From the NCBI RefSeq assembly GCF_039645985.1, contig NZ_CP147919.1, positions 2,108,001 through 2,172,000 on the forward strand: a DNA stretch of 64,000 nucleotides, given 5' to 3'. Positions 36,244 through 50,997 of the stretch are shown piece by piece. The notes under the pieces were generated by a model. It was not told where the DNA came from, did not search any database, and saw only the letters and a list, made by a program, of their open reading frames with translations. This stretch comes from Sulfurimonas sp. HSL3-7. GTDB lineage: Bacteria; Campylobacterota; Campylobacteria; Campylobacterales; Sulfurimonadaceae. Made by a program: the position numbers and the translations under genes. Numbering within the stretch: the first letter of the stretch is position 1; each line of letters begins with the position of its first letter.

Positions 36244-37385
36244 AATTCACATTCCCAAGCGTTGTTTTGACATTTTTCGATGTTCTTGCGAAGCTCCGTC
36301 GCTTTTGCGAAGAGATCCGGGCGCGTCAGCTCTTTGAGCTGTGCTTCGCAGGCCGCAAAATTAGCGGTCATATAATAGGCATAGGCCAGGGCATAGCGGA
36401 TATTCTCATCCTCCAGCAGGCCGCTGCGTTCGATCGCACTGTGCGCCGAGACCACCCGTTCGTACTCGCCGAATTCAAGATAGATCGCGATACGCTGTTT
36501 ATACTTCTCTTTGGTGTCGAGCAGCTGCGTGTTTTTATAGAGCGCCAGCGTAAACTCGCGGGCACGGCGCAGCATCTCGGCCGCCTCTTTGGTGTATTTG
36601 GCATCTTCGATCGAGGCCTGGTCAAAGAGGTCGGCCGCCGCATGGATCATCTCCTGGTCAAGATAGAGATGGGCCAACATCACGGTCATCTCGGCACTCT
36701 CAGGAAACTTCAGGTTGCCGCGTTCTGCCAATTCGGTCGCTTTTTGCGTCGCGCCGCTTTTGCGAAGGGCACCGATGAACGACAGATAGGTCTTGGCGTT
36801 GGGCTTTTCATTGGCCAGGTAGATCTCGGCATCTTCCAGTGCGCTTTGATAGAGCCCGAGTTCGACATAGTAGTTGAAACGCTGCTTGTAGACGGCAAAA
36901 TAGTCCGGGAATCTGGCGATCGTTTCGGCAATCGTCTCCAGGGCCTCCGGACGCTGTTCAAGTTTCCAGTGACACTCCGCCCGCAAGGCCAGTAGCTGCG
37001 GTTTAGCCGCAGCAATATCGCCCGCCTTGTCCAGCGCCTCTATCGTTCCCTGATAGTCGAGCAGCTTAAAATTGTTCTGCGCGATATAAAGGTAGATCGT
37101 CGGTTCCGTCTGACCGCTCTCGATCGCTTTATAGAACTGTTCATTGGCCACTTTATAGAGCTGCTGTTTCGTAAAGACCAACCCTTTGATCGTGTAGTAC
37201 AGCACGAAGTCAAAATCTTTCTGTGTCGTGTCAGCTTCGTTCAGGGTCTCGGCAGCACGGGCATAGTGACCGTCTTTCATCAACAGTGCCGCCAGTGCGA
37301 CATGGTCGACTTCGTCATTCTTGCTCTTCTCAGCAGCAAAGACCGTCAGTTGTAACGCCGTTAATAACATAAAAAATAGTTTCAT
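36240..37385 (-). CDS. TPR protein of the TonB2-type complex
   Basis: The 381-residue product has a signal peptide (MKLFFMLLTALQLTVFA) and about eight tetratricopeptide-like helical repeats, for example HYARAAETLNEADT, FYKAIESGQTEPTIYLYIAQ, SALEDAEIYLANEKPNAKTY and LAHLYLDQEMIHAAADLFDQ. A periplasmic TPR protein downstream of tonB is a standard member of Vibrio TonB2-type clusters, where it supports the transducer complex. It lies 10 bp after tonB and overlaps the receptor gene. Confidence 0.88.
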   Translation of the reverse strand: MKLFFMLLTALQLTVFAAEKSKNDEVDHVALAALLMKDGHYARAAETLNEADTTQKDFDFVLYYTIKGLVFTKQQLYKVANEQFYKAIESGQTEPTIYLYIAQNNFKLLDYQGTIEALDKAGDIAAAKPQLLALRAECHWKLEQRPEALETIAETIARFPDYFAVYKQRFNYYVELGLYQSALEDAEIYLANEKPNAKTYLSFIGALRKSGATQKATELAERGNLKFPESAEMTVMLAHLYLDQEMIHAAADLFDQASIEDAKYTKEAAEMLRRAREFTLALYKNTQLLDTKEKYKQRIAIYLEFGEYERVVSAHSAIERSGLLEDENIRYALAYAYYMTANFAACEAQLKELTRPDLFAKATELRKNIEKCQNNAWECEL

Positions 37386-37395
37386 AGCTCTTCTC

Positions 37396-38031
37396 TTATT
37401 GCAGATCGAATCGGATCTTCTGTTTGGCCCACACTTTGACGTTTTGGCCCTGGTACTGTGCCGGGGTAAAGCTCCAGCCCATTACGCCCGCTTCGGCCGT
37501 TTCGTCAAAGACGCCTGCCGGTTCGGATTCCAGTACCTTGACCTTCTCCACCTGTCCCTCTTTACTGATGAGCAGGTTCATAAGCACGTAGCCGGTGACA
37601 CCGTTTTTACGTGCCGCCTTCGGGTACTCCATTGCCGAACGCTGTGCCGGTTTAGGCGCCACATCGACGGACTCCCCTGTCATGACGACATCTTTATTGA
37701 CATCGCCGAGCAGCGCATCGTCCATGCCGGCATCATCACTCATAAAAGCGTCCAGTCCGGTGTCAATACCCCCGAGGCTTGAACTCAGGCTCGGTGTCGG
37801 CGCAGCGCGTTTCACCTCCGCTTTTTTCGGTTTCGGCTTCGGTTTCGGTTTCGGCTTCGGTTTCGGTTTGACCATCTTCTGGATCTCGAAGTTGGCGGCT
37901 GCCTCTTTTTTCTTTGTCTCATGGATGCCGCCTGCTTCGTTCATCATGATGACCGTCGTGAAGACAAAAGCCACACCGAATACCATCCACACAGCGGCTT
38001 TGAGATAGGTTGACCAGTTTGGACGAAGCAC
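37396..38031 (-). CDS. tonB: Energy transducer TonB
   Basis: Couples the proton-driven ExbB-ExbD motor to outer-membrane receptors. I place the start at GTG 38029-38031, directly after the exbD stop, with GAGG upstream. The product of about 211 residues starts (M)LRPNWSTYLKAAV, has one membrane helix (WMVFGVAFVFTTVIMM), and a (KP)7 spacer encoded by a hexamer repeat at about 37825-37870. The C-terminal TonB domain reads YPKAARKNGVTGYVLMNLLI...GWSFTPAQYQGQNVKVWAKQ. The product is short, as in TonB2-type proteins. The (KP)n tract is prone to slippage. Confidence 0.93.
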   Translation of the reverse strand: MLRPNWSTYLKAAVWMVFGVAFVFTTVIMMNEAGGIHETKKKEAAANFEIQKMVKPKPKPKPKPKPKPKKAEVKRAAPTPSLSSSLGGIDTGLDAFMSDDAGMDDALLGDVNKDVVMTGESVDVAPKPAQRSAMEYPKAARKNGVTGYVLMNLLISKEGQVEKVKVLESEPAGVFDETAEAGVMGWSFTPAQYQGQNVKVWAKQKIRFDLQ

Positions 38032-38032
38032 C

Positions 38033-38437
38033 TTAGCCGACCTCTTTTTTCGTTGCGACAGCGACGTCTTTCGCACCCGAAAGTCGGCACTGGTCAACCA
38101 CATCGATCAGCTTTTCAACAGCGATGGTGTCATCCGTCACAACAAGGACGGACTTCTCGGTCGAAGCACGCAGCATATCCCGCAGTTTGCCCTGTATCGC
38201 CCAGGTCTTGACAGGCTGGCCGTCTACATAGGTCTCGCCGGTGTTGTCGATGTAGACACGGATCACCTTCGATGAGGCACGCGAGGCTGACGAAGCGCCC
38301 GGGCGTTCTAGGTCGAGTTTCATATCTTTGACAAAAGTCGAACTCACCATAAAAAAGATCAACAGGATAAAGACCATGTCGATCAGCGGCGACATATCAA
38401 CGTCGCTGACCTGCTCTTTTTTTCTTCTAAACTTCAT
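38033..38437 (-). CDS. exbD: Biopolymer transport protein ExbD
   Basis: The 134 residues begin MKFRRKKEQVSDVDMSPLID, followed by the single helix MVFILLIFFMVSSTFV with the conserved proton-carrying Asp in SPLIDMVFIL, and a periplasmic domain. It overlaps exbB by 11 bp and is followed within a few bases by tonB. It is the proton-channel partner of the ExbB-like proteins at 38427-39047 and 39047-40360. Confidence 0.95.
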   Translation of the reverse strand: MKFRRKKEQVSDVDMSPLIDMVFILLIFFMVSSTFVKDMKLDLERPGASSASRASSKVIRVYIDNTGETYVDGQPVKTWAIQGKLRDMLRASTEKSVLVVTDDTIAVEKLIDVVDQCRLSGAKDVAVATKKEVG

Positions 38438-39047
38438 GACTTACCTTTTCATTTACTTCTGTACATAAGATGTCGATGATCTGTTCGAGCTCCAGTTCCA
38501 TCGTGTTCGCACGGCGGTCCAGCAGACGGCCGATGATCACACCGGGAACAGCCACGACAAGACCCAGCTGCGTTGTAAAAAGCGCCTGCGAGATACCGCC
38601 GGCGATACCGCCGCTCTGGCTGAAGAGCGATGCAGAGGCCAGGGAGTCGAAGGTCTCGATCATCCCTACGACCGTTCCCAAAAGTCCGATCAGCGGCGCG
38701 ATCACGACCAGGGTCATCACCAGACGCGAGTACTGTTTAAGCTGTTTTTGATAGCCGTAGAAGCGGTCATCGAGCAGCTTGCGCGGGGAGACGGCATAGC
38801 CGTTCTCATCGATGATCTTCATCGCATCGACAATCGCACTGTCGATCAGTCCCTTTGTCGCAATGCGCTTGTTCTCTCTATATTTCCTGATCAGGGTACG
38901 CACACTCTTTTTTGACCCGCGCTTGAGGGTATGAAAACGAAACCCCAGACCGAACCACAGGAACATGGCAGTGAAAAAGAGCGGCCACATGACAAGGCCG
39001 CCGCTCTGCATGTAGTCAAAAAAGCCCTCCAGATACAGACTCAACAT
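38427..39047 (-). CDS. exbB: MotA/TolQ/ExbB proton channel protein (ExbB2-like)
   Basis: The 206 residues contain an N-terminal helix (GGLVMWPLFFTAMFLWFGLGF). The core has RLVMTLVVIAPLIGLLGTVVGMIETFDSLAS and GGISQALFTTQLGLVVAVPGVIIGRLLDRRA, the ExbB/TolQ signature helices with LGTV and TTxxGL. It overlaps exbD. The long ExbB-like gene upstream overlaps it by 1 bp. Two ExbB-family proteins in one operon is typical of TonB2-type systems. Confidence 0.94.
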   Translation of the reverse strand: MLSLYLEGFFDYMQSGGLVMWPLFFTAMFLWFGLGFRFHTLKRGSKKSVRTLIRKYRENKRIATKGLIDSAIVDAMKIIDENGYAVSPRKLLDDRFYGYQKQLKQYSRLVMTLVVIAPLIGLLGTVVGMIETFDSLASASLFSQSGGIAGGISQALFTTQLGLVVAVPGVIIGRLLDRRANTMELELEQIIDILCTEVNEKVSHEV

Positions 39048-40360
39048 TATTTCTGCTTGTTATACTCGTTGATCAAATGCAGTGCAGAGTGTTCCATGCC
39101 GTCTTTGATCTTTTCTGCCCATGCACTCAACATGTTGCCAAGCAACAGCATCGGGATAGCCACGATAAGGCCGAGCTCCGTTGTGACAAGCGCGATCGAG
39201 ATACCGCCTGAAAGCAGTTTCGGGTCACCCGTACCGAACTCGGTAATGATGTCGAAGGTTGCGATCATACCCGTTACCGTTCCAAGCAGACCCAGCAGCG
39301 GTGATACCGCGGCGATCACCATGATCGCTGAGCTGAAACGGTCAAGCCGGGTGCTCTCATGCATGATCGACTCCATCACGACATCCTCGACGTGTTCACG
39401 CTCGGCGTCGATATTGCGCACTGTTGCTTTAAAGAGTCGCGGCGCGGCACCTTTTTTGTCTCTCAGGAAATCCAGTGTCTTCTCCTGCCCATCCTTGAGA
39501 AGGTGCGTCAACGTCTCTTTTGCAAGCGGCAGAGTAGCCGAGTTCGATCCGGTCAGAAAGACAAAACGCACCAACGCCAGCAGCAGACCGAGCGCACCCA
39601 GACCCATGATCACCCAACCGATGATCCCGCCTGAGTTGATCACCGAGATGATCGTCTTCTCGGTCTTGTCTTCGATCTCTTTGGCGCTGTTCTCATAGAT
39701 AAAGATGTCAAGCGTAGCAGGCATCTCCGATCTGGCCATGACCTTGGCCGTTTCAGCCGCTTCGGGTGCATTATAGATCTTGAACTTCCCTTCGCCGGCA
39801 GGAACAAGGGCGCCTGCACTTTCGGCATCGACCCCGTAGCGTGCGATGTTACCGATCTTGACGACCGTGCCGAGTCTTTCCGTACCGTCACTCAGGTAGA
39901 AAGGGCCCTTCGTCACTTCGACTGCAGAGAGTTGTCCGATCAGGGCATCCGCTTTTTCAAAGATTGTCTTAAGTGCCGCCTGATAGTTCTCCTTGTCAAC
40001 CTCGACTTCGATACCGTAAGGTTTCAAGGCGGACTGCGCCTGCAGTACGACCGCTTCGACCATCGAGACGTCATCCGTCACGTTTTGGGCATGCTGCTGC
40101 GCCGCATAGAGCTGATCACTCAAGCTTTCGCTTCTGTTCTGTTTGGCAAGCACGCTGTTCTGCAGTGTGCCAAGCTCTGCTTTTGCTGCCTCAAGTTTCT
40201 GGGCATTTTCCGTTGTAATACGCTCCAGACGTTGTGTCAGCATATTCTTTTGTGCTTTCAAAAAAGCAAACTCTTTGGCATAAGCGCGTTCAAGCTGAGT
40301 ATCGGTCGCACCGAAAAGTGCTGTTGTCACCAACAGCAGGGCCAATAGTAAATTACGCAT
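39047..40360 (-). CDS. Long MotA/TolQ/ExbB protein with periplasmic domain (TtpC-like)
   Basis: The 437-residue product begins with a signal peptide/first helix (MRNLLLALLLVTTALFGA). A periplasmic region of about 200 residues with coiled-coil character follows, and then the ExbB core: GWVIMGLGALGLLLALVRFVFL, AVSPLLGLLGTVTGMIATFDII and GISIALVTTELGLIVAIPMLLLG. This matches TtpC, the extra ExbB-like component of Vibrio TonB2 systems that is needed for function. It overlaps DUF3450 by 1 bp at its start and exbB by 1 bp at its end. Confidence 0.9.
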   Translation of the reverse strand: MRNLLLALLLVTTALFGATDTQLERAYAKEFAFLKAQKNMLTQRLERITTENAQKLEAAKAELGTLQNSVLAKQNRSESLSDQLYAAQQHAQNVTDDVSMVEAVVLQAQSALKPYGIEVEVDKENYQAALKTIFEKADALIGQLSAVEVTKGPFYLSDGTERLGTVVKIGNIARYGVDAESAGALVPAGEGKFKIYNAPEAAETAKVMARSEMPATLDIFIYENSAKEIEDKTEKTIISVINSGGIIGWVIMGLGALGLLLALVRFVFLTGSNSATLPLAKETLTHLLKDGQEKTLDFLRDKKGAAPRLFKATVRNIDAEREHVEDVVMESIMHESTRLDRFSSAIMVIAAVSPLLGLLGTVTGMIATFDIITEFGTGDPKLLSGGISIALVTTELGLIVAIPMLLLGNMLSAWAEKIKDGMEHSALHLINEYNKQK

Positions 40361-41118
40361 TATTTCACCTCCGTTACAACAAGCGCATTAGGCAGGGTGA
40401 AATAGCCTGTGCGGATCTGTTTTTTAAAAGCATCGAAGAGAGCGGCGATCTGATCGGCCTGCGCTTTATCGAGTACCTGTTTATAGTCCCAGCCCCGCTC
40501 GCTCTTGACCACGTACCCCATCTCGTCATTCGGCGTCTTGAAGTACATCATCATCGTTCCGATGCGGGCCACTTCCGCCAGACGGTCCTGACCGTTAAGC
40601 TCGATCGTCTGTTTGAAAGTACCGTTCTCTTTGCTCATACGGATTGCATCGCCGTACGAGTTCCATGTCAAAGCCAGGGCTTTTTGTGCCGTGATCTCAT
40701 CGTTTTCAAGCTGGCTCTGTATACGCTGCACATCAGCGATACGATCGGCCGTCTTGAAAGGGATCTGTGCCTGGATATCTTTTTCCAGAACAGACAACGC
40801 TTCCAGTACCAGAGGTTTCAGGCCCACCGAGTTTTTGCCCGCCTCCTTAACCTCTTTTTTGACCTTGCCCATCTCTGCGTCAAGCTGTTTTATACGAAGC
40901 TCTTCTCTCGCGATCAACGCATCAAGGTCATTTTTTTGCAGACGCAAAGATTTCATCGACCCTTTGAACGCATCTTTTTCATCTGCGATCGAACTGTCCA
41001 GCTGCTCCACTTCTGCACGAAGTTTCATCAACGATTCCGCCATATTGTCACTGTTTGCCATCAACGATGTACCAGCAACCAAAAAAGCCAAAGCAATATT
41101 TTGCATTTTTGTAGACAT
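40360..41118 (-). CDS. DUF3450 periplasmic coiled-coil protein
   Basis: The 252-residue product has a signal peptide (MSTKMQNIALAFLVAGTSLMA). A long coiled coil (about 25-110: LMKLRAEVEQLDSSIADEKD, LIAREELRIKQLDAEMGKV) is followed by a small C-terminal domain. DUF3450 proteins are encoded directly upstream of ttpC-exbB-exbD-tonB clusters in many Gram-negatives and probably form part of the periplasmic complex. It is the first gene of the operon 41118-32656. A GGGGAA ribosome-binding site and the phased GTAAC promoter lie just upstream. Confidence 0.88.
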   Translation of the reverse strand: MSTKMQNIALAFLVAGTSLMANSDNMAESLMKLRAEVEQLDSSIADEKDAFKGSMKSLRLQKNDLDALIAREELRIKQLDAEMGKVKKEVKEAGKNSVGLKPLVLEALSVLEKDIQAQIPFKTADRIADVQRIQSQLENDEITAQKALALTWNSYGDAIRMSKENGTFKQTIELNGQDRLAEVARIGTMMMYFKTPNDEMGYVVKSERGWDYKQVLDKAQADQIAALFDAFKKQIRTGYFTLPNALVVTEVK

Positions 41119-41146: not shown

Positions 41147-41200
41147 ATAATAGATCAGGGTGGTTACTTTAACGTTACTCTTGTGTAACATTTAGGTTAC
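41147..41200 (-). promoter_or_regulatory. Phased GTAAC promoter/operator of the TonB operon
   Basis: Read on the minus strand, half-sites GTAAC (41196-41200), GTTAC (41185-41189), GTAAC (41174-41178) and GTAAC (41163-41167) recur every 11 bp exactly. The last ends 10 bp before the -10 hexamer TATTAT (41147-41152). Transcription would start near 41140, giving a leader of about 22 nt. There is no -35 box, as expected for PhoB/OmpR-type activation. The remaining gap 41201-41467 shows no gene. Confidence 0.7.
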
Positions 41201-41467
41201 ACAGCAACTGGAGGCAGATGGCCGGCTGGCACCGTCAAGCAGAAAAAATCGCCATAATACCCGTGTTCAAGGGCTCATCAGATGCATCTGGCGTCTAAAT
41301 GGTTGTTTCATTATAAGAACATGGTCATCTCATCTTGGTTACATACCTGTGGCAAAGAAGCTTTATTTGTCTGCAATCGACATGCATGACACAGTAGAAG
41401 AGGTTCGGTTTGAAAGATTGTGTAGAGAGAAAGAGGCGTGAAGCTCTGTGTGATCACTAAGTATAAA

Positions 41468-41492
41468 ACAGAGCAGCAAAGCGCTGCTCTGT
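41468..41492 (-). terminator. Terminator of the two-repeat lipoprotein gene
   Basis: A perfect 10-bp stem, ACAGAGCAGC/GCTGCTCTGT, with a 5-base loop is followed on the minus strand by TTTTATAC. It lies 17 bp after the stop of the lipoprotein gene at 41509. Confidence 0.75.
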
Positions 41493-41508
41493 CTGTAGGA
41501 CTGCCTTA

Positions 41509-43749
41509 TTATTTAAGGTAGACATCTTTGAACGCGATTGCCGCTTTCTGATCAGCGACAAAGGCTTTTTTCGTATGGATCGCAGCATCACCGATACCCG
41601 GTGCTGTTACGAAACCGTTACCGAAGATCGGAGCCGTGGAGTCGTCTTTGATGTAGATACCGCCTTCATCACTTCCATCGACTTTTACGATACGGAAGTT
41701 TTTGATCTCGGCACCTGTCATCGGCGTGTCGCCGCCGCTTGAGATCTCGAACCCTGCGTGCGCCGCATTAACCTGCTCGACAACGATGTTGTCCGCTGTT
41801 CCGACATAACCGTAGTCAAGGTCGAGGCTGTCATCGTTACAGTTTTTCAATGTCGCGTTTGTCACATTGACCGTACCACCCCAGATCTCGATACAGTCAT
41901 CTGAAGAGTTCTCGACATAGATGTTCTCTACCACTGTGCCTGAACCGACACCGGCAAGGGAAAGACCGTTGATCTCAAGGTCTGTCGCTACCTCTTTTCC
42001 TGAGTTCAGGATATAGACGTTTCTAAGGATACCGCTGTTGTCAGCTGCATCACCTGCACCTGCTGTAGCAGCACCGAACGCGAAGTCCGCATCTGTCTCA
42101 TCCACTTCATAGAACGGTGCATCGTGGTTGGTCGGTGCGCCGCCAAGAACTGTCAGACCGCCCCATTGTGCAGGAGCAGCATCTGCCGGGTTCAACAATG
42201 CTGTTGCTGATGTAAAGATGATCGGAGATGCTTCCGTACCGTCCGCGATGATCTTTGAACCTTTTGTCACAACAATATAGTTCGCACCGGCTTCACCGAA
42301 GATCACTGTTCCCGGTTCGATTGTCAATGTCGCGCCATCTTTCACTTTTACAAGACCGTTGATCTTCCAAAGTGTCGCTGCATCCAGTGTTGTATCTACT
42401 ATGATATCACCTGTCAATACCGTCGCAGCCGCTTGTGCTGCAGCGTCTCTTGTCGGTGCTACCGGCGCCGGTAATGAGATCGTACCGCCCTGAGCTTCGA
42501 ACTTCTCTTGAACATCCGCTGCACCTGAGCCGTCAAAATCAACCGAAGCCGTCAACGTCACGTTTCTGAATGCGATCTGACCTTTTTGGTCAGCGACAAA
42601 GGCTTTTTTCGTGTGGATACCGGCATCAAGCGCGCCAACTGTTGTCACTGTTCCGTTACCGAAGATCGGTGCAGTGGAGTCGTCTTTGATGTAGATACCG
42701 CCTTCATCACTTCCATCGACTTTTACGATACGGAAGTTTTTGATCTCGGCACCTGTCATCGGCGTGTCGCCGCCGCTTGAGATCTCGAACCCTGCGTGCG
42801 CCGCATTAACCTGCTCGACAACGATGTTGTCCGCTGTTCCGACATAACCGTAGTCAAGGTCGAGGCTGTCATCGTTACAGTTTTTCAATGTCGCGTTTGT
42901 CACATTGACCGTACCACCCCAGATCTCGATACAGTCATCTGAAGAGTTCTCGACATAGATGTTCTCTACCACTGTGCCTGAACCGACACCGGCAAGGGAA
43001 AGACCGTTGATCTCAAGGTCTGTCGCTACCTCTTTTCCTGAGTTCAGGATATAGACGTTTCTAAGGATACCGCTGTTGTCAGCTGCATCACCTGCACCTG
43101 CTGTAGCAGCACCGAACGCGAAGTCCGCATCTGTCTCATCCACTTCATAGAACGGTGCATCGTGGTTGGTCGGTGCGCCGCCAAGAACTGTCAGACCGCC
43201 CCATTGTGCAGGAGCAGCATCTGCCGGGTTCAACAATGCTGTTGCTGATGTAAAGATGATCGGAGATGCTTCCGTACCGTCCGCGATGATCTTTGAACCT
43301 TTTGTCACAACAATATAGTTCGCACCGGCTTCACCGAAGATCACTGTTCCCGGTTCGATTGTCAATGTCGCGCCATCTTTCACTTTTACAAGACCGTTGA
43401 TCTTCCAAAGTGTCGCTGCATCCAGTGTTGTATCTACTATGATATCACCTGTCAATACCGTCGCAGCCGCTTGTGCTGCAGCGTCTCTTGTCGGTGCTAC
43501 CGGCGCCGGTAATGCAGTTGTTACCGGAGAAGCAAACGTTGTTGCAGAGATCACGCCGTCGTTGGCAACGTGACGTTCCATTGCATCCAAAGCACCAGAA
43601 CCGTCATACAGCTCTGCCTCTACCGTAGGCGTTGGCGTTGGTGTAGAGCTGCTTGAAGAAGATGAACTCCCACATCCTGAAAGAGTTAATAGTGCCGCTG
43701 TCAGGCTACTAAGTACGATTGTTGAAACGAATTTTTCATTCTTTGCCAT
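41509..43749 (-). CDS. Beta-helix surface/periplasmic lipoprotein with duplicated domain
   Basis: The product of about 746 residues (ATG at 43749 with AAGGAG) has a lipoprotein signal ending LLTLSGC (Cys26), then a Ser-rich and (TP)n linker. Two nearly identical domains of about 280 residues are separated by a period of 346 residues. Each domain is repetitive and rich in N, G and D, with rungs such as LVKVKDGATLTIEPGTVIFG, PIIFTSATALLNPADAAPAQ, IEIWGGTVNVTNATLKN and DSLDLDYGYVG, as in right-handed parallel beta-helices. The second copy ends the protein. The 421-residue lipoprotein at 48820-50085 is a one-domain paralogue. Some databases label such proteins multidrug transporters; nothing here supports that. 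The promoter is the six-fold GTAAC array upstream, shared with the TonB operon. It may be cargo or partner of the Oar-like receptor (inference). Confidence 0.9.
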   Translation of the reverse strand: MAKNEKFVSTIVLSSLTAALLTLSGCGSSSSSSSSTPTPTPTVEAELYDGSGALDAMERHVANDGVISATTFASPVTTALPAPVAPTRDAAAQAAATVLTGDIIVDTTLDAATLWKINGLVKVKDGATLTIEPGTVIFGEAGANYIVVTKGSKIIADGTEASPIIFTSATALLNPADAAPAQWGGLTVLGGAPTNHDAPFYEVDETDADFAFGAATAGAGDAADNSGILRNVYILNSGKEVATDLEINGLSLAGVGSGTVVENIYVENSSDDCIEIWGGTVNVTNATLKNCNDDSLDLDYGYVGTADNIVVEQVNAAHAGFEISSGGDTPMTGAEIKNFRIVKVDGSDEGGIYIKDDSTAPIFGNGTVTTVGALDAGIHTKKAFVADQKGQIAFRNVTLTASVDFDGSGAADVQEKFEAQGGTISLPAPVAPTRDAAAQAAATVLTGDIIVDTTLDAATLWKINGLVKVKDGATLTIEPGTVIFGEAGANYIVVTKGSKIIADGTEASPIIFTSATALLNPADAAPAQWGGLTVLGGAPTNHDAPFYEVDETDADFAFGAATAGAGDAADNSGILRNVYILNSGKEVATDLEINGLSLAGVGSGTVVENIYVENSSDDCIEIWGGTVNVTNATLKNCNDDSLDLDYGYVGTADNIVVEQVNAAHAGFEISSGGDTPMTGAEIKNFRIVKVDGSDEGGIYIKDDSTAPIFGNGFVTAPGIGDAAIHTKKAFVADQKAAIAFKDVYLK
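41639..42476. repeat. Near-perfect internal direct repeat, distal copy
   Basis: About 838 bp that read identically, including synonymous positions, to 42677-43514; the offset is 1038 bp, a multiple of three. The repeat ends at GCTACCGGCGCCGGTAATG. Beyond its edges the two domains remain similar but diverged, so the identity is a patch inside an older duplication. This suggests recent recombination or gene conversion between the two domains. Confidence 0.85.
42677..43514. repeat. Near-perfect internal direct repeat, proximal copy
   Basis: Partner of 41639-42476 within the same lipoprotein gene. Recombination between the copies would delete or add 1038 bp in frame, giving one- or three-domain versions of the protein. 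Short-read assemblies may collapse this region. Confidence 0.85.
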
Positions 43750-43777
43750 TTGGAAGGCTCCTTGATTAATTTCCAAA

Positions 43778-43853
43778 ATTATAAAAGCCTTCTGTTACAT
43801 CACCACTACCGTTATGACACATAAATGCAACAGCAGTGTAACATTTTGGTTAC
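43778..43853 (-). promoter_or_regulatory. Six-fold phased GTAAC promoter of the two-domain lipoprotein gene
   Basis: On the minus strand half-sites GTAAC, GTTAC, GTTGC, GTGTC, GTAGT and GTAAC begin at 43853, 43842, 43831, 43820, 43809 and 43798. All are exactly 11 bp apart; the outer ones fit best and the middle ones are degenerate. The last ends 10 bp before TATAAT (43778-43783). The predicted start of transcription is near 43771, 22 nt before the ATG. Confidence 0.7.
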
Positions 43854-43966
43854 ATCTACAATTCTCTTTACTCTCACCTTTTATATATATTATGTAAGCC
43901 GTATTATCCTTGTTCAAAAACAGACAGCCGCATAGAAAAAACAGACGTCCCCAGTATGGCGCATAA

Positions 43967-44030
43967 GTAACAATTCGGTTACAACAAGGCTACGGCATGT
44001 AACCTTTGTGTTATAAAAAGCGGATAAAGT
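43967..44030 (+). promoter_or_regulatory. Phased GTAAC promoter of the first response regulator gene
   Basis: On the plus strand GTAAC (43967), GTTAC (43978), GCTAC (43989), GTAAC (43999) and GTTAT (44010) are spaced 11, 11, 10 and 11 bp. The last ends 10 bp before TAAAGT (44025-44030). This would place the regulator gene in the same regulon, probably under its own control. Confidence 0.6.
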
Positions 44031-44059
44031 GCCACTATATAAACTATACGGACAGGGTA

Positions 44060-44734
44060 ATGGCGGCACAGATATTAATCGTAGAAGATGAAAAAGATCT
44101 GCTTGAGGTTCTAGAACACCGACTGAACAAAGAGGGTTACGAGACACTCGGCTTTCTCAGTACAAAGAATGTTCGCCAGGCGATCGCGGAAGAGAAGATA
44201 GACCTTATCATCATGGACAGGAACCTCCCCGATATCGAGGGGAGCGAGTTCATCGCCCTGCTGCGCGACCAGGGGATGGAGATACCCGTCATCTACCTCT
44301 CGGCAAAGGGGAGCAAATACCATATCGAAGAGGGGTTTCTGCGCGGTGCGGACGATTATGTCTGCAAACCTTTTGAGATGCAGGAGCTCTTCTACCGTAT
44401 ACAGGCTGTATTGCGCCGGACCCAGGCCCATCAACAGGCGAACACCGTCTCTTTTCGTGATATTGAACTTGATCTGCGCTCACGTGAGATCTTTATCGAC
44501 GGCAAAGAAGTCGAACTGACCAAACTGGAGTTTGACCTGCTGCACACTTTCATCGAAAGCAGAAATACGGTCCTCAAACGCGACTACCTGTTGAAACATG
44601 TCTGGGGCAAAAACGAACACTACCAGGGCCGTACCGTCAATGTCGCCATCAACCGTCTCAAAGAGAAGATTGATCCCGACAAAAGCAAAGACTACATCAA
44701 GACGGTTCGGGGGATAGGCTATACCATTCATTAG
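44060..44734 (+). CDS. OmpR/PhoB-family response regulator
   Basis: The 224-residue product (ATG at 44060 with AGGG upstream) has a receiver domain: ILIVEDEKDLLEVLE with the acidic pair, LIIMDRNLPD with the phospho-acceptor Asp, YLSAKG, and the Lys in YVCKPFE. A winged-helix DNA-binding domain follows, with DLRSREIFIDGKEVELTKLE, FDLLHTF, RTVNVAINRLKEKID and TVRGIGYTIH. PhoB-type proteins bind direct repeats at 11-bp spacing, just as found upstream of this gene and four other local promoters. It is therefore the leading candidate for the GTAAC-site regulator. The cognate kinase may be the hybrid kinase at 45998-48679. Confidence 0.93.
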   Translation: MAAQILIVEDEKDLLEVLEHRLNKEGYETLGFLSTKNVRQAIAEEKIDLIIMDRNLPDIEGSEFIALLRDQGMEIPVIYLSAKGSKYHIEEGFLRGADDYVCKPFEMQELFYRIQAVLRRTQAHQQANTVSFRDIELDLRSREIFIDGKEVELTKLEFDLLHTFIESRNTVLKRDYLLKHVWGKNEHYQGRTVNVAINRLKEKIDPDKSKDYIKTVRGIGYTIH

Positions 44735-45110
44735 TTTTATACGCTGCGGCGAGCTAAGCTCCCCTACGCTACGTTAACACTGGGTTTGACTAGGCGTCAG
44801 GTCCCCCGTGCAGGTAAACCGCACTCTTTTCTCACTGCACACTAAATGAACACGTTCCCCTTCATTGCGTTAACACTGGGTTTCCCCTAAAGGGATTTCC
44901 TTTGGTCAGCTTCGGCGTCAGACCCTCGCGCAGGTAAACCGCGCTCTTTTCTTACTGCTTTCTGCGGCGAGCCGATAGTCTTTGTCGTTGTGAAACCAAC
45001 GCCGGGTTTCCCTTCAATGGCTCTCTTTCGATCATACCAGAATCCGGGAAAACTTTCTTCGGGGATCAGTTCTTGATCCCGGATCAAGACGAGAACAACA
45101 AGATGCCACC
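44735..45110. repeat. Gap with a diverged direct repeat
   Basis: Two copies of a segment of about 70-105 bp lie here. The first begins CGTTAACACTGGGTTTGACT (near 44772) and the second CGTTAACACTGGGTTTCCCC (near 44867). Both continue through GGCGTCAG and GCAGGTAAACCGC to CTCTTTTCT(C/T)ACTGC. The second copy has about 33 extra bases after GGGTTTCCCC. CTGCGGCGAGC also occurs twice (near 44752 and 44965). No gene is credible in the 480-bp gap before 45216. A 66-codon minus-strand frame here lacks a good ribosome-binding site. Confidence 0.5.
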
Positions 45111-45215
45111 TCCCGTAACGGACCTTAAAATATTTTTATCTCAAACCTATCACTGTTGTGCTAAAAATTTAAGCACTTTGTTCTATAATGAAAACAAATT
45201 TTAAATAGGTAAATC

Positions 45216-45962
45216 ATGAGTCAAAAGATATTGATCGTCGAAGACGATGAAGTCACCGCTTTAAACCTCAAGATGTCGCTTGAAAAACAGGGGTATGCCG
45301 TCGTTTCCATTGCCGACACAGCAATCCAGGCACGTAACAAAATCAAGATCTACGAACCGGATCTCATCTTGCTCGACATCTCACTTCAAGAGGTCGATGA
45401 CGGCATCGAGCTTGCCCACTACATCCATGATAAATATGCTCTCCCCTTTATCTTCCTGACCTCGCATTTTGAAAATGAGATCATCTCCAAGGCCAAGACA
45501 ACGGAGCCCTACGGCTATATCGTCAAACCCTTCGATCCGCAATCGCTGCACGGGACTATTCAGATGGCACTCTACAAGTATGAGGAGGAGAAGAAACGAG
45601 ACGAGAACCTGAATGCGCTAAAATCCGACAAAGATCACCTTGAGAAGCTTCTCTTTGCCAAAAAGATCTCCGACAAACCGATCATCCCTTTTGGTGACGG
45701 CTACCATCTCGACATCGATCTGGACAAGGTCTTCTACAAGGGTAAAATGCTCAAGCTCACCAAAAAAGAGAACACCTTCATACGCCTTCTTGTCGCGCAG
45801 CTCGGTGTCATCGTCAGTTTCGAACAGGCAGTGAATTATGTCTGGGAAGACGAAGGGGCTACTGAAAACAACGTCCGTACTCTTGTCTGGCGTCTTCGTA
45901 AACTGCTGCCGACGCCGATCATCAAGAATGCTTCAGGTATCGGCTACTACATCGAGATATAA
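45216..45962 (+). CDS. Response regulator with winged-helix output
   Basis: The 248-residue product has a receiver domain (KILIVEDDEVTALNLKMSLE, LILLDISLQEVDDGIELA with the phospho-acceptor Asp, FLTSH, YIVKPFDP). A short coiled linker (about 125-155) leads to a Trans_reg_C-type winged helix (KMLKLTKKENTFIRLLVAQL, NNVRTLVWRLRKLL, IKNASGIGYYIEI). The promoter appears to be an ordinary -10 TATAAT near 45183, without GTAAC half-sites. The gene converges with the hybrid kinase gene 36 bp away, which suggests they work together. Confidence 0.92.
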   Translation: MSQKILIVEDDEVTALNLKMSLEKQGYAVVSIADTAIQARNKIKIYEPDLILLDISLQEVDDGIELAHYIHDKYALPFIFLTSHFENEIISKAKTTEPYGYIVKPFDPQSLHGTIQMALYKYEEEKKRDENLNALKSDKDHLEKLLFAKKISDKPIIPFGDGYHLDIDLDKVFYKGKMLKLTKKENTFIRLLVAQLGVIVSFEQAVNYVWEDEGATENNVRTLVWRLRKLLPTPIIKNASGIGYYIEI

Positions 45963-45997
45963 CGCTTTTCCTTTTTCGGCGGCAGTGGCCCTCTTTT

Positions 45998-48679
45998 CTA
46001 CGCGCTGACAGTAATAGAGGTAAACGCCTCTACGATTGCATCATAAACATTTTCAAACTCAAATTCGCTTGATTTGGCAGAAGAGGCTTTTTCAAGCCTA
46101 TAGGCCAGATCAACGATCGGCTCGATCCTGAAATTACTGCTTGAGCCTTTGATCGAGTGCGCCAGATGAGCGATCACCTTATAGTCTCTCTGTCCTATAG
46201 CCTCTTTAAGCTCTTCGAGACTCTCTTCCATCTTTTTACTGTAGATCTGCATGAGACGTATGACCTGTTCTTCCTCAAGCATCAGCTCTTCAGCCAATGA
46301 CGTAATGCACAACCCTTGAAGCGTAGTGCCGTTATCCCTTTTACAGCTCTTTAGCGCAGCACTCTCGTCGACAACCTCCTCCAGAAAACGGCTCAGAACA
46401 GCTTCGATCTCTTTGAGGACGATCGGTTTGCCCAAGAAGGCATCAAACCCTTTCTTGGCGCTCTTCTCTTTCTCACCTTTAAGGACATTCGCAGTCAAGG
46501 CGATGATCGGCGTAGGCTCTTTGCCGCCGCTCTTCTCAAATGCCCGGATTTCCTCGGCTGCCTTACTCCCGCTCTTTTTAGGCATCTGTTCATCCATCAG
46601 AAGCAGGTCAAAATCGCCTGACTTATAGCGATTCACCGCTTCCAGCCCATCGGAAGCGATGACGTAGTGCAGACCATAACTCTCCAAAATAATCTTGATC
46701 AGCTCCTGATTGGCACTGTTGTCTTCTGCCACCAGAACATTGCCTTTGAAACAGCGTTTTTTAGACGGACTTGCCAACAGTGCCCCATCGTTCTCCTCAG
46801 ATAGGCGGAGCGCGTCCAAAAAGGTGTGATAGAGCTTTGAACAGTAGAGCGGGAAGTAAAGCGGCGTGATATTCTCCACCTCCTCATAGCGGTTGTCAAA
46901 ATACTCCATGATCGCTATGGCCGGAAGCTTCTTCTTGACTATTTGTGAACGCATAATCTCATTTATCTGGGCATCGGAAAAGAAAAGAATGTCATAGAGA
47001 TCATCGCTCAACGTATCCACCAGGATCACATCGAGTTCAAAGATCTTGAGATAGCGCTGCAGCGATTCCAGGGTGTTGGAGAGTGTGCCGTTTTGACGGA
47101 GAAGCGCCAGAGTCAGCTTCTTGAACGGCTGCACATTGAACATCTCCAACGTCGTTTTTTCATTTGAACGGACCGGGATCTCCAGGGTAAAGACACTCCC
47201 CTTGCCTACTACCGATTCGACATGGACATCCCCGCCCATATGCTGTGCCAGTTTCTTGCAGATAGCTAGACCCAGGCCGGTACCGCCGTGAACATTACCG
47301 CCTCTGTTCTTCGCCTGGGTAAACGCCTCAAAGATCCTTGACTGGTCCTCTGCATCGATACCTATCCCCGTGTCTTTGATACTGATACGCAACATGTCCT
47401 CTTCACAGAAAGCCTCAAGTTCCACAACTCCTTCAGGCGGCGTAAACTTGATCGCATTGCTGATAAAGTTGGCAATGATCTGCTTGATGCGCAGCGGATC
47501 GGCCTCCAGTATGTAGGGAATGTGCGGATCGAGATAAGAGAGCATCGTGACCCCTTTCTCATTGGCGCTCGCAACAAACAGCTCCAGGGTGTGGCTCAAC
47601 TCTTCATGCAGGTTGAAATGACTCTTTTCGATCATAAACTCGCCGCTTTGAAGTTTTGAAAAGTCCAGGATGTCATTAATGATATTAAGCAGGTTCTCCC
47701 CGCTGTTGAGGACAATATCGAGATACTTCTTGTGTTTGGAACTTCCCACCTCATCCTGAAGAATACTGACGAAGCCCAAAATGGCGTTCAGCGGTGTGCG
47801 GATCTCATGCGACATGTTGGAAAGAAAGTACTCTTTTGAGAGCCCCGCCTGAACCGCTTCCTGCCTGGCCTGTATCAGCGTCGTGACGTCATAGGCGATC
47901 ACAATATACTCCGTGACCCTCCCTTCTGTATTGCTGATGGGAACGACCGTGCTGTCGACATAAAAAAAACTGCCGTCTCGCTTCTGCTTTTTCAGACTCT
48001 TGTTGTAGACGCTTTCTGCCGGGATCGTCTTCAAAAAGCTTTTATCAAAAGCGTGTTCCTCCTCAGCGGCCAGGATCATATTATGTTCTTTGTCCAGCAG
48101 CTCTTCACGGCTGTAACCGCTTAAGGCACAGAACTTGTCATTGACAAAGATGATCCTGCCGTTGGGATCCATTTTCGAAACAATGGCACTGGCATCGATC
48201 GCTTTTTTATACTCATTCAGAAGCTTGACATTGCGTTCGATTTCACGCTCTTTCTGGTAGATCGTACCGGTATAGCGCTTGAGCACGCCCGAGAAGTTGA
48301 GATCAAAAAGATAGGAGACCTCGTCGAAGATCGTTTTGGAGTTGAGTGAAGAGTCATACGAAAAATCGATCATCGCTTTTCGGAAGTGGCTGCAGATAAT
48401 AAAAAGTTCATCCGCCGAGATGTCACGGTCTTTAAGATACTCGATCAAATCCGCCATAACAGGGCAATCCCCGATCTCTTTTTTACCGCGGATAACATCC
48501 ATAAAATAGTCAAATACCCCGCCGCCGAAATGGTTGATAAAGTCGCCGGTCTCGATATTGTGTCTCTCGAGGATAATGCGAGGTTCTTCAAAGACCAGCC
48601 ACTCTTGCAGAATATGCTGTTTGGCCGCAACAAATATCGGCAGGGCACGCAGCAGGTGGGGAACCTTTTCGTCTAACAT
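45998..48679 (-). CDS. Hybrid histidine kinase (helical N-domain, PAS, HisKA, HATPase, REC, Hpt)
   Basis: The 893-residue protein has no obvious membrane segment. Residues 1-150 are helical and may form a sensor bundle. A PAS domain spans about 160-270 (SKMDPNGRIIFVNDKFCALS). The phospho-accepting His is near 291 in LSNMSHEIRTPLN. The ATPase has FISNAIKFTP, DTGIGIDAEDQSRIFEAF and GGTGLGLAICK. A receiver follows (VLVAEDNSANQELIKI, LLLMDEQMP), then a C-terminal Hpt domain with AHSIKGSSSNF. The His-Asp-His relay could pass phosphate to either nearby response regulator. GGAG precedes the ATG. It is cytoplasmic and so probably senses an internal signal. Confidence 0.93.
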   Translation of the reverse strand: MLDEKVPHLLRALPIFVAAKQHILQEWLVFEEPRIILERHNIETGDFINHFGGGVFDYFMDVIRGKKEIGDCPVMADLIEYLKDRDISADELFIICSHFRKAMIDFSYDSSLNSKTIFDEVSYLFDLNFSGVLKRYTGTIYQKEREIERNVKLLNEYKKAIDASAIVSKMDPNGRIIFVNDKFCALSGYSREELLDKEHNMILAAEEEHAFDKSFLKTIPAESVYNKSLKKQKRDGSFFYVDSTVVPISNTEGRVTEYIVIAYDVTTLIQARQEAVQAGLSKEYFLSNMSHEIRTPLNAILGFVSILQDEVGSSKHKKYLDIVLNSGENLLNIINDILDFSKLQSGEFMIEKSHFNLHEELSHTLELFVASANEKGVTMLSYLDPHIPYILEADPLRIKQIIANFISNAIKFTPPEGVVELEAFCEEDMLRISIKDTGIGIDAEDQSRIFEAFTQAKNRGGNVHGGTGLGLAICKKLAQHMGGDVHVESVVGKGSVFTLEIPVRSNEKTTLEMFNVQPFKKLTLALLRQNGTLSNTLESLQRYLKIFELDVILVDTLSDDLYDILFFSDAQINEIMRSQIVKKKLPAIAIMEYFDNRYEEVENITPLYFPLYCSKLYHTFLDALRLSEENDGALLASPSKKRCFKGNVLVAEDNSANQELIKIILESYGLHYVIASDGLEAVNRYKSGDFDLLLMDEQMPKKSGSKAAEEIRAFEKSGGKEPTPIIALTANVLKGEKEKSAKKGFDAFLGKPIVLKEIEAVLSRFLEEVVDESAALKSCKRDNGTTLQGLCITSLAEELMLEEEQVIRLMQIYSKKMEESLEELKEAIGQRDYKVIAHLAHSIKGSSSNFRIEPIVDLAYRLEKASSAKSSEFEFENVYDAIVEAFTSITVSA

Positions 48680-48819
48680 AAGGGGGACTCCAAAAGGTGA
48701 AATAGGCGGAGTATAGCATATTACTTTTGGATATTTTATAGAAAAAGCGTATTAACTGTTTTACCTAAGCCTAGTGACGATCAAGCGCCTATTAATAAGG
48801 CCTGTTTTTTGACGAAGCC

Positions 48820-50085
48820 TCAGTTCAACACACTCCATCCCTGACGCCAGTCACTGTTCTTACGGTATGCACCGATGAAATTGCTTTGCTCAAAGAAATC
48901 GTTTTCGACCTGCGCGATGTAGTTACCTTCCGTGACAACCGTTGAGTTGAATGTTTTGTTGAAGGTAAGAAGATCGTTGATCCCGGCGGCCTCGTCTTCG
49001 ACATCGCCACGGGCACAATTAAACAGGTAAACGCCGTCAAAACGGTTTGTTTTAAACCGTTCCTGTCCCTCGCTTTTGACCACGATACCGACGCCGCCGA
49101 CATTCCGGATCACGCCATTGTAAAGTGTCAACCCTGAACCAACTCTCGAGAAGACCGCTTCCGAGGTTTTCTTCGTACCGTCGATCTCAAAGTTTGCCAC
49201 CTTTGCAAGCGTGCGGGGCTCAGCATTTTGGGATTTTTTGTTGTTGTCGGTCTCGATCCCTCTGGCATGGATCGATTCAACAGTAGTCTGTTTGATATAG
49301 ACATACTGGATATTGCCCCGGTAGCCATGGTCAAAATCGAGGTTGTCATCACCGTTTCCGATCAGAATAATGTGTTTCATATTGACATTGCCGCCCCAGG
49401 CTTCGATGCCGTCGTCTTTGCCGTTATAGACCTCGACATAATCGATCGTCGTTTTTCGTCCGACACCGCCGAGGCTCAGACCATTGAGTTCTTCGCCCGG
49501 ACGTACTTCGTTTCCGGCATAGCGGATCTGCACATACTTCAATATACCCGAGTTGTCCTCCTCATTGTCGCCGCCGAAACGCACATCGGTGTTGGAAAAT
49601 TCGAAACGCTCCTCTTTACCGGCATTGGTCGGTCCATATCCTGCGATCGCGATACCGCCCCAGTCACCCGGCGTAGAGAGCAGACCGGCTGCATCTTTCA
49701 TCGAGGTAAAGATGATAGGCTGTGAAGAGGTCCCTTCCGCAATGATCTGTGAACCGCGCGTCACGATCAAAAAATCGGCACCGGTCTTGCCAAAAACAGT
49801 TGTTCCCGGATCGATCACAAGTCTCGCCTCTTCTTTAGAGTCAATACCGATATGCACTTCGCCTTTAAGCGCCCAGAACTTGTCATTGGTCAGATGGATA
49901 TTGTCTACATAGGTTCCGCGCAGCTGGCAGACAGGCTTGCCCTCAAAATCATCGCTGATCAACTGGGTGTTCTCCGGGCAAGAAATGGTTGATTCATGGA
50001 GTTCGTTCTGTTTTTCAAGACAACCGCTCATCGTCAACATCGCTGCCGCACTCAAACCTATCAGCCAAAATCCGTTTTTTTTCAT
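48820..50085 (-). CDS. One-domain beta-helix lipoprotein
   Basis: The 421-residue product has a lipoprotein signal (MKKNGFWLIGLSAAAMLTMS then GC). A beta-helix domain homologous to the repeats of the protein at 41509-43749 follows, with EARLVIDPGTTVFGKTGADF, LIVTRGSQIIAEGTSSQPII, GDWGGIAIAGYGPTN, ELNGLSLGGVG, DGIEAWGGNVNMKHI and NLDFDHGYRGNIQYVYI. The C-terminal 100 residues are distinct. An AAGGA site precedes the ATG. Its promoter carries the phased GTAAC sites, back to back with the promoter of the EAL gene. Confidence 0.88.
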   Translation of the reverse strand: MKKNGFWLIGLSAAAMLTMSGCLEKQNELHESTISCPENTQLISDDFEGKPVCQLRGTYVDNIHLTNDKFWALKGEVHIGIDSKEEARLVIDPGTTVFGKTGADFLIVTRGSQIIAEGTSSQPIIFTSMKDAAGLLSTPGDWGGIAIAGYGPTNAGKEERFEFSNTDVRFGGDNEEDNSGILKYVQIRYAGNEVRPGEELNGLSLGGVGRKTTIDYVEVYNGKDDGIEAWGGNVNMKHIILIGNGDDNLDFDHGYRGNIQYVYIKQTTVESIHARGIETDNNKKSQNAEPRTLAKVANFEIDGTKKTSEAVFSRVGSGLTLYNGVIRNVGGVGIVVKSEGQERFKTNRFDGVYLFNCARGDVEDEAAGINDLLTFNKTFNSTVVTEGNYIAQVENDFFEQSNFIGAYRKNSDWRQGWSVLN

Positions 50086-50117
50086 AATACATCCTTTTTC
50101 GGCAAAATTCTAGGCGG

Positions 50118-50160
50118 CTATTATTTCAGAAACATTACTAAAGTATAAGATTTTGGTTAC
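50118..50160 (-). promoter_or_regulatory. Phased GTAAC promoter of the one-domain lipoprotein gene
   Basis: On the minus strand GTAAC (50156-50160), CTTAT (50145-50149) and GTAAT (50134-50138) are 11 bp apart. The last ends 10 bp before TAATAG (50118-50123). The geometry is the same as at 41147-41200 and 43778-43853. Confidence 0.6.
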
Positions 50161-50191
50161 GGGGGAAATTCCAGATCGGCGGCATCGCGAT

Positions 50192-50223
50192 GTAATACAA
50201 AAGTAATGCTTTTGCGCTACTAT
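50192..50223 (+). promoter_or_regulatory. Phased GTAAT promoter of the EAL gene, probably giving a leaderless mRNA
   Basis: On the plus strand GTAAT (50192-50196) and GTAAT (50203-50207) are 11 bp apart. The second ends 10 bp before TACTAT (50218-50223). Transcription would start at or within a base of 50230, the A of the EAL gene ATG. Confidence 0.6.
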
Positions 50224-50229
50224 CCGCCC

Positions 50230-50997
50230 ATGACAGACACTAGACATTTTTTAGAAAAGATCAAAGCACTTGATTTCGCCTTTCAGCCGATCGTCGATAT
50301 ACACACCAGAGAGATCTATGCAGTCGAGGCCCTGCTGCGAAACGTTGAAATAATAGGCTATGACTCCATCCACCACTTTTTTGACACGGCCTACCATCTG
50401 GGGCTTCTATACGCCGTCGATCTTCTGCTTCGTGAAAAAGCGATCAAAAAGTTTACGCAACTCGAAAACTATGCCGCCATCAAGCTCTTTTACAACCTTG
50501 ATAACCGTCTGCTGGATATGGAGGATTACACCACCGGCAATACCGAAGCCCTGCTGCAGGCATATAATGTAGCTAAAAGTACCCTCTGTTTCGAGATATC
50601 GGAACGTCATGAAGTGACCAAAGAGGGTAACGGCATCATCCATATACTTGAACACTATAAAAAAGAGGGATTCCAACTTGCTATCGATGATTTCGGCGTC
50701 GGATTTTCCGGCTTTAAACTGTTCTATGAATTTACGCCTGATGTCATCAAAATAGACCGCTTTTTTATCAACGGCATCTGCGAAGACCCAAAAAAAAGGG
50801 TGATCGTCGAAAATATCATTCAGCTGGCAAAGCAGCTAGGCGTCAGGATCATTGCCGAAGGGATCGAACGCGAAAGCGAGCTGGAGGTCTGCAAGGCTTT
50901 GGGGTGTCAGCTTGTCCAGGGTTACCTCATTCAAAGGCCCACTACCGACATCCATGATATAAAGACGAACCGCTCTGTTCTAAGCAACGTTGCCTGA
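50230..50997 (+). CDS. EAL-domain cyclic-di-GMP phosphodiesterase
   Basis: The 255-residue product is a stand-alone EAL domain: FAFQPIVDIHTREIYAVEAL with LLR, FYNLDN (metal-binding Asn), CFEISERHE (Glu), LAIDDFGVGFSG (paired Asp), DVIKIDRFFI (Lys), IIAEGIERESEL (Glu) and VQGYLIQRP. All catalytic residues are present, so it should hydrolyse cyclic di-GMP. The start at ATG 50230 gives the domain at once; the frame extends to 50206 but crosses the -10 element. No ribosome-binding site is present. It shares its control region with the divergent lipoprotein gene. Confidence 0.92.
   Translation: MTDTRHFLEKIKALDFAFQPIVDIHTREIYAVEALLRNVEIIGYDSIHHFFDTAYHLGLLYAVDLLLREKAIKKFTQLENYAAIKLFYNLDNRLLDMEDYTTGNTEALLQAYNVAKSTLCFEISERHEVTKEGNGIIHILEHYKKEGFQLAIDDFGVGFSGFKLFYEFTPDVIKIDRFFINGICEDPKKRVIVENIIQLAKQLGVRIIAEGIERESELEVCKALGCQLVQGYLIQRPTTDIHDIKTNRSVLSNVA

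Follow-up and report, generated by a model that had tools for sequence, protein, structure and literature searches.

The phosphate two-component system PhosS/PhosR of Campylobacter jejuni, a member of the same phylum as the bacterium considered here, uses the box GTTTC-N6-GTTTC, with an 11-bp step like that of the PhoB box of Escherichia coli. E. coli PhoB recognizes two 11-bp repeats (PMC4415409), and its sites lie 10 bp from the -10 element (PMC1906773). Caulobacter crescentus induces the lipoprotein ElpS (CC0170), whose gene adjoins that of the TonB-dependent receptor CC0171, upon phosphate starvation (PMC2996285), and its PhoB is reported to govern several TonB receptors (PMC11208175). Pseudomonas fluorescens RapA is a Pho-controlled cyclic di-GMP (c-di-GMP) phosphodiesterase (PMC3032545), and the TonB2 system of Vibrio serves iron (PMC6957404). 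Here we consider a stretch of 64,000 nucleotides from Sulfurimonas sp. HSL3-7 (the window; positions 2108001-2172000 of the single 2.87-Mb contig of this genome, G000, NZ_CP147919.1) in which the promoters of a TonB operon, two beta-helix lipoprotein genes (BH1 and BH2), a response regulator gene (RR2) and an EAL-domain gene are built on GTAAC-like half-sites. Overall, we hold with high confidence that these five sites are the Pho boxes of a phosphate-starvation regulon driven by PhoB, with RR2 as its partner or amplifier.

The five promoters and the phosphate cluster

When each promoter was read in 11-bp registers upstream of its -10 element, the half-sites, the 11-bp spacing and the 10 bp to a -10-like hexamer described in the original prediction were reproduced at all five places (Table 1). 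Two or more direct repeats of 11 bp, with 10 bp between the last repeat and a TANNNT hexamer, support the proposal of PhoB/OmpR-type head-to-tail repeats in the position of the -35 element, whose absence was judged by eye. GTAAC and GTTAC are mutually reverse complementary, so that the core alone gives no orientation of the half-sites, and orientation was therefore taken from the -10 element and the GTAACC or GTTACA flanks.

The link to phosphate comes from outside the window. At 11-19 kb of the genome, a protein scan read pstB, pstA, pstC, a PhoR-like kinase, a PhoB-like regulator, phoU, pstS and two porin-like genes, with a phoU-phoB-phoR operon at 12.8-15.6 kb. In pattern searches of the entire 2.87-Mb genome, the strict pattern GTWAY-N6-GTWAY-N10-TANNNT gave 13 matches, against none for the reversed pattern that served as control, and six of the 13 fall within this pstCAB / phoU-phoB-phoR / pstS / porin cluster. 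Boxes lie there upstream of pstC, phoU, pstS and both porin-like genes; the sixth match is the phoU box read from the opposite strand, as expected from the reverse complementarity of GTAAC and GTTAC. The identical box type thus precedes pst and pho genes in the same genome, which supports both the suspected phosphate link and a single regulon of the PhoB/OmpR type. At the same time, the five promoters first proposed are too few, since at least five more lie at 11-19 kb. In eight genus members taken together, the strict pattern matches 71 times (8 for the control). Runs of three perfect GTNAY half-sites are confined, in this genome, to the TonB promoter and the phosphate cluster (15.6-18.9 kb), with 2 matches for the control. 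As a side observation, about 17 tandem copies of the heptamer CACCATT separate pstS from the first porin gene in locus L014 (12114-12233).

A matrix trained solely on the five promoters of the pst/porin cluster, about 0.73 Mb from the window round the circle, was then applied blind. It gives five matches at 15 bits or more in the window, against a mean of 0.09 in shuffled windows and none in the reversed window, and four of the five claimed sites rank near the top of the window (TonB promoter 24.0, BH1 16.3, EAL 16.0 and RR2 15.4 bits). A matrix that has seen only the cluster recovers the window sites, and we therefore regard these as Pho boxes. The fifth site, read at 50118-50160 with TAATAG as its -10 element, scores below 11. 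Here the original reading needs correction: the conserved element in the BH2 promoter is TAGAATT, one repeat further downstream and identical in three species, and the shift to TAGAAT adds a fourth half-site, GAAAT. Similarly, the 10-bp step once read in the RR2 promoter is better described as two pairs at a 21-bp offset; the 21 bp are kept in six genus members and the middle "half-site" is not. The six consecutive half-sites of the BH1 promoter (43794-43853) hold for the window, but three relatives have only four. Relative to these, the window promoter carries a 22-bp, two-unit, in-phase extra, which amounts to growth of the operator by a whole repeat pair.

Table 1. Features of the window, with the predicted Pho-box promoters and the genes they precede.
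Feature	Position	Strand	Details
TonB2-type operon, ttpB (DUF3450)-ttpC-exbB-exbD-tonB-ttpD (TPR)-TonB-dependent receptor	33100..41118	-	Pfam; order conserved; naming from PMC6957404
Pho-box promoter of TonB operon	41147..41200	-	GTAAC 41200, GTTAC 41189, GTAAC 41178, GTAAC 41167 + 10 bp + TATTAT 41152-41147
BH1, right-handed beta-helix lipoprotein, two-copy, ElpS-like by context	41509..43749	-	
Pho-box promoter of BH1	43778..43853	-	six half-sites + TATAAT
Pho-box promoter of RR2	43967..44030	+	half-sites 43967, 43978; 21-bp offset; 43999, 44010; TAAAGT 44025-44030
RR2, PhoB paralogue	44060..44734	+	66% identity to pst-linked PhoB, with which it shares the recognition helix; intact phospho-acceptor pocket
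BH2, beta-helix lipoprotein	48820..50085	-	
Pho-box promoter of BH2	50107..50160	-	GTAAC 50160, CTTAT 50149, GTAAT 50138, GAAAT 50127 + 10 bp + TAGAAT 50112-50107
Pho-box promoter of EAL gene	50192..50223	+	half-sites 50192, 50203; TACTAT 50218-50223; ATG 6 nt beyond -10
Stand-alone EAL c-di-GMP phosphodiesterase	50230..50997	+	catalytic motifs present; predicted leaderless mRNA

The boxes are conserved well beyond this genome. The DUF3450 protein TtpB was found in 42 of 151 genomes of the family, and 40 of the loci were fetched. In a promoter survey of related rows at a fixed threshold, boxes were found at genes of the phosphate cluster (pstS 37/38, pstC 27/32, phoU 35/38, and the porin-like gene Por2 23/24) and at genes of the cassette type (ttpB 36/40, BH1 12/13, RR2 26/32). 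Genes internal to the operon, which served as controls, have next to none (ttpD 0/44, exbD 0/43, receptor 1/39), and the sole boxed receptor gene, in L182, is placed separately and has its own box of four half-sites. The order ttpB-ttpC-exbB-exbD-tonB-ttpD-receptor on one strand is kept in 39 of the 40 loci, a few of them cut by contig ends. The ends of the cassette usually bear a beta-helix lipoprotein gene and a regulator of the RR2 type, and in many loci the cassette adjoins pst or pho genes.

Several observations weigh against the assignment of all five sites to a PhoB-driven regulon. Both regulators miss the cut-off of TIGR02154, the NCBI equivalog model for PhoB (296.2 bits, against 195.8 for the pst-linked protein and 191.4 for RR2); PhoB is nonetheless the best-scoring model for both, and PhoB is identified here by gene context, not by that model. 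The boxes of BH2 and the EAL gene are built on weaker half-sites, and EAL orthologues were found in just three of eight genus members, several incomplete.

Two PhoB-like regulators and two classes of operator

The pst-linked PhoB and RR2 of this genome share one recognition helix, R-T-V-N-V-A-I-N-R-L-K-E-K-I-D-P, and the phosphorylation pocket is retained in both regulator families. Most likely, the pst-linked PhoB drives the regulon and RR2 is an autoregulated partner. The RR2 gene is itself preceded by a Pho box, and its product is probably able to bind these sites too, so that we regard it as a partner or amplifier of PhoB and not as the sole regulator. From the sites, their geometry and conservation, the gene content and the paralogy, all of them computed, we infer binding, phosphate response, kinase and cargo. 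At low phosphate, PhoR would phosphorylate PhoB, whose dimers would bind pairs of TGTAAC half-sites head to tail in place of the absent -35 element and recruit RNA polymerase to the -10 element located 10 bp downstream. The window would then be the outer-envelope arm of the response, comprising the TonB2-type operon with its receptor, the two ElpS-like lipoproteins, the EAL protein and RR2. Most promoters of TonB cassettes and lipoproteins have four half-sites, which would take two dimers; pst promoters have two half-sites.

RR2 is tied to the TonB cassette by descent as well as by position. The TonB-linked regulator copies form one clade in the tree (35 rows; support 99 in the Shimodaira-Hasegawa-like approximate likelihood ratio test). 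Three further TonB-linked copies from Sulfurimonas group with the pst-type PhoBs because they are located beside both TonB and pst genes, and the copy in L197 is too divergent to place. With RR2 taken to be present where a second match reached E <= 1e-70, RR2 and TtpB occur together in 33 of the 151 genomes, RR2 alone in 3, TtpB alone in 9 and neither in 106; given this way of counting and the relatedness of the genomes, the Fisher p of about 1e-21 makes the evidence look stronger than it is. Among the nine genomes with TtpB alone, three carry RR2-like genes (G035, G002 and, as a fragment, G070).

The most serious rival is an operator read by two regulators, in which PhoB and RR2 jointly occupy the four-half-site promoters, as one dimer each or as mixed dimers, with the TonB and lipoprotein tier expressed only in deeper starvation. 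We consider this possible, if tentative. It builds on the difference between the two promoter types: pst-type promoters have exactly two half-sites, with random third and fourth units (up to 40 related loci), whereas matches are found for the third unit in 75% and for the fourth in 67% of ttpB promoters, with 67% and 75%, respectively, for BH1, and four half-sites are kept in most of 41 TtpB promoters. For the fourth unit of ttpB versus pst, the Mann-Whitney p is about 4e-14, a value that, like the others, comes from related rows and is not independent. RR2 co-occurs with the cassette, lies in L063 and L067, both Sulfurimonas loci, directly upstream of genes for PhoB and PhoR, and is missing from four cassettes whose ttpB promoters have two half-sites. 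However, the cassettes without RR2 are few, two of them near-identical, and another such cassette, in L181, has four half-sites; several genomes with RR2 have fewer than four, and multiple dimers of PhoB alone could fill four sites. Tentatively, PhoB may read the two-site class in the Sulfurimonadaceae (pst, porins, EAL), and PhoB together with a co-inherited second PhoB may read the four-site class (TonB cassette, surface lipoproteins). If true, this joint reading would place outer-membrane uptake, which is costly, in a second tier of the response that amplifies itself.

It is improbable that the five promoters answer solely to the orphan response regulator at 44060-44734, as a dedicated regulator apart from the general phosphate regulon. 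RR2 does lie inside the cluster with a box of the same kind, it falls in its own clade with TonB-linked paralogues and co-occurs with ttpB, and four-half-site promoters are typical of its neighbourhood. Against this, the identical box stands at the pst and phoU-phoB-phoR operons, and the recognition helix is that of the pst-linked PhoB. Further, the ttpB promoter is boxed where RR2 was not detected, with two half-sites in L207-L210 and four in L181, a short contig; this rules out RR2 as the sole regulator, and its identification as such in the original prediction is unsupported. Nor was a dedicated kinase found beside RR2 in the loci examined across genera. The gene order in L063 and L067 suggests that PhoR is the kinase of RR2 also, and the hybrid kinase at 45998-48679 was rejected as its partner since, outside the genus, it does not accompany RR2 in the examined loci. 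The RR2 gene is followed by a long intergenic stretch (44735-45060) with imperfect repeats such as cgttaacactgggttt.

Least probable by far is a reading of the sites as part of a different OmpR-family regulon or as AT-rich repeats arisen by chance. A second, related 11-bp motif, TTAACACT-N3-GTAACACT, does exist in the genome upstream of TauE/SafE-like genes and of genes for a TonB receptor and an OmpR-type regulator, but the window sites have the pst-type GTAACC/GTTACA form and not TTAACACT, the shuffled and reversed controls yield almost none, and the boxes are conserved across genera.

This second OmpR-type motif, with a -10 element about 10 bp on, lies at 249273, 256965, 458058, 2034677 and 2814625 of G000 (L100, L101, L103, L106 and L110), upstream of two TauE/SafE-like genes, of the genes for a TonB receptor and an OmpR-family regulator, and of a small gene resembling those of lipoproteins. 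The motif seems to define a separate regulon, possibly for metal. A genome scan relaxed to one mismatch mixed it in and was not used to extend the Pho regulon, and matches of the GTAAT type only, at 613129, 1361457, 2311766 and 2519946, were not counted as members as they lack the GTAACC form. Five members of the genus share a similar pair of the GTAAT type accompanied by TTTTAAAAT (G000 1361457, G043:C7:4656, G035:C185:1310, G025:C185:1609, G007:C37:2933). This pair, which in G000 precedes a gene resembling 3-deoxy-D-arabino-heptulosonate 7-phosphate synthase, may be either an ordinary promoter or a weak Pho box. Three genomes (G043:C10:24349, G035:C106:33146, G049:C129:1130) share a matching stretch of 32 identical bp, GTTACCACATTGTAACGCTGGTTTATTATACT, perhaps within a conserved gene.

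The genes under the boxes

The window operon has the gene order of a TonB2-type system. Assigning such a system and ElpS-like lipoproteins of sulfur-oxidising Campylobacterota to a phosphate-starvation regulon has a direct consequence: given control by a Pho box, phosphate or a phosphorus compound becomes the prime candidate for the cargo. A Pho-regulated DUF3450/TonB system was not found in the open-access literature searched. The ElpS-like label of the lipoproteins draws, as far as their sequence goes, on a lipobox-like N-terminus. Homologues are hypothetical proteins adjoining TonB receptors in Pseudoalteromonas, Alteromonas and Indioceanicola. A plasmid of Alteromonas macleodii has the order phoB-phoR-phosphate-binding protein-oxygenase-beta-helix-receptor-DUF3450-ExbB-ExbB-ExbD-TonB-TPR, and in Indioceanicola the genes for a BH2 homologue and a receptor are followed by type II secretion genes. 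The two halves of BH1, each about 330 aa long, are nearly identical, the mark of a recent duplication within the gene. Searches with the BH2 sequence against the PDB and NCBIfam gave no match, and its structure model (predicted local distance difference test score 72) has no significant PDB match, the best (E 0.0097) being to general beta-helix proteins that name no enzyme.

The EAL protein has the catalytic residues E-x-L, N, E, DD, K, E and Q, read by eye in an alignment to 6ifq. Its homologues in several genera, about 50-59% identical, are encoded beside pho genes or BH2, most with a Pho box. In most such loci the -10 element ends 5-7 nt before the start codon, which leaves no room for a ribosome-binding site, and a leaderless mRNA is therefore predicted; the -10 elements of pstS, ttpB and RR2 promoters mostly lie about 30-60 bp before the start. 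Pho-boxed EAL genes with a close -10 element are found in L019, L041, L045, L047, L048, L054, L055, L057, L063, L065, L074, L086, L089 and L097. A published comparison describes leaderless mRNAs as poorly conserved in this phylum (PMC3847290). A Pho-boxed EAL gene with a predicted leaderless mRNA would link phosphate status to c-di-GMP in these bacteria. More generally, the analysis yields a Pho-box matrix that can be used in this lineage and a clear genetic test of why a second PhoB stays with the TonB cassette.

Likeness to described systems

With the E. coli Pho box, the sites in the window share 11-bp head-to-tail repeats, a 10-bp gap to TANNNT, pst and pho targets, and a winged-helix regulator of the PhoB family. 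The half-site does differ, as originally noted, with TGTAAC here and TGTCAT/C in the CTGTCAT-type repeats of E. coli, but essentially by a single base (TGTAAC versus TGTCA(C/T)). Upstream of the beta-helix gene in the Alteromonas phosphate cluster both forms are adjacent, as TTGTAAC-AAAA-ATGTCAC. Where the recognition helix of E. coli has D196, H198, R200 and R203, the residues in this genome are N, A, N and K, and, unlike E. coli, this genome has a set of promoters with four half-sites and two PhoB paralogues. PhosS/PhosR of C. jejuni, likened by description and not by sequence, differs in its half-site as well.

The TonB2 operon of Vibrio vulnificus (TtpB2, TtpC2, ExbB2, ExbD2, TonB2, TtpD2; PMC6957404) has the same order, opening with the DUF3450 protein and continuing with a second ExbB-like protein, ExbB, ExbD, TonB and the TPR protein. 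The Vibrio operon is controlled by iron (Fur), whereas the window operon is Pho-boxed and ends in its own receptor. For ElpS the likeness comes from context and not from the CC0170 sequence: the Indioceanicola BH2 homologue, beside receptor and type II secretion genes, has the arrangement reported for Caulobacter elpS, while no type II secretion genes were noted beside the window cassette. RapA and the EAL protein, likened by description and not by sequence, are both c-di-GMP phosphodiesterases with phosphate control, predicted here from a Pho box; unlike RapA, the EAL protein is stand-alone, with a predicted leaderless mRNA. The kind of system is a known one, and what is new lies in its details: the half-site, the four-site operator class, the PhoB paralogue and a conserved EAL gene, predicted to be leaderless.

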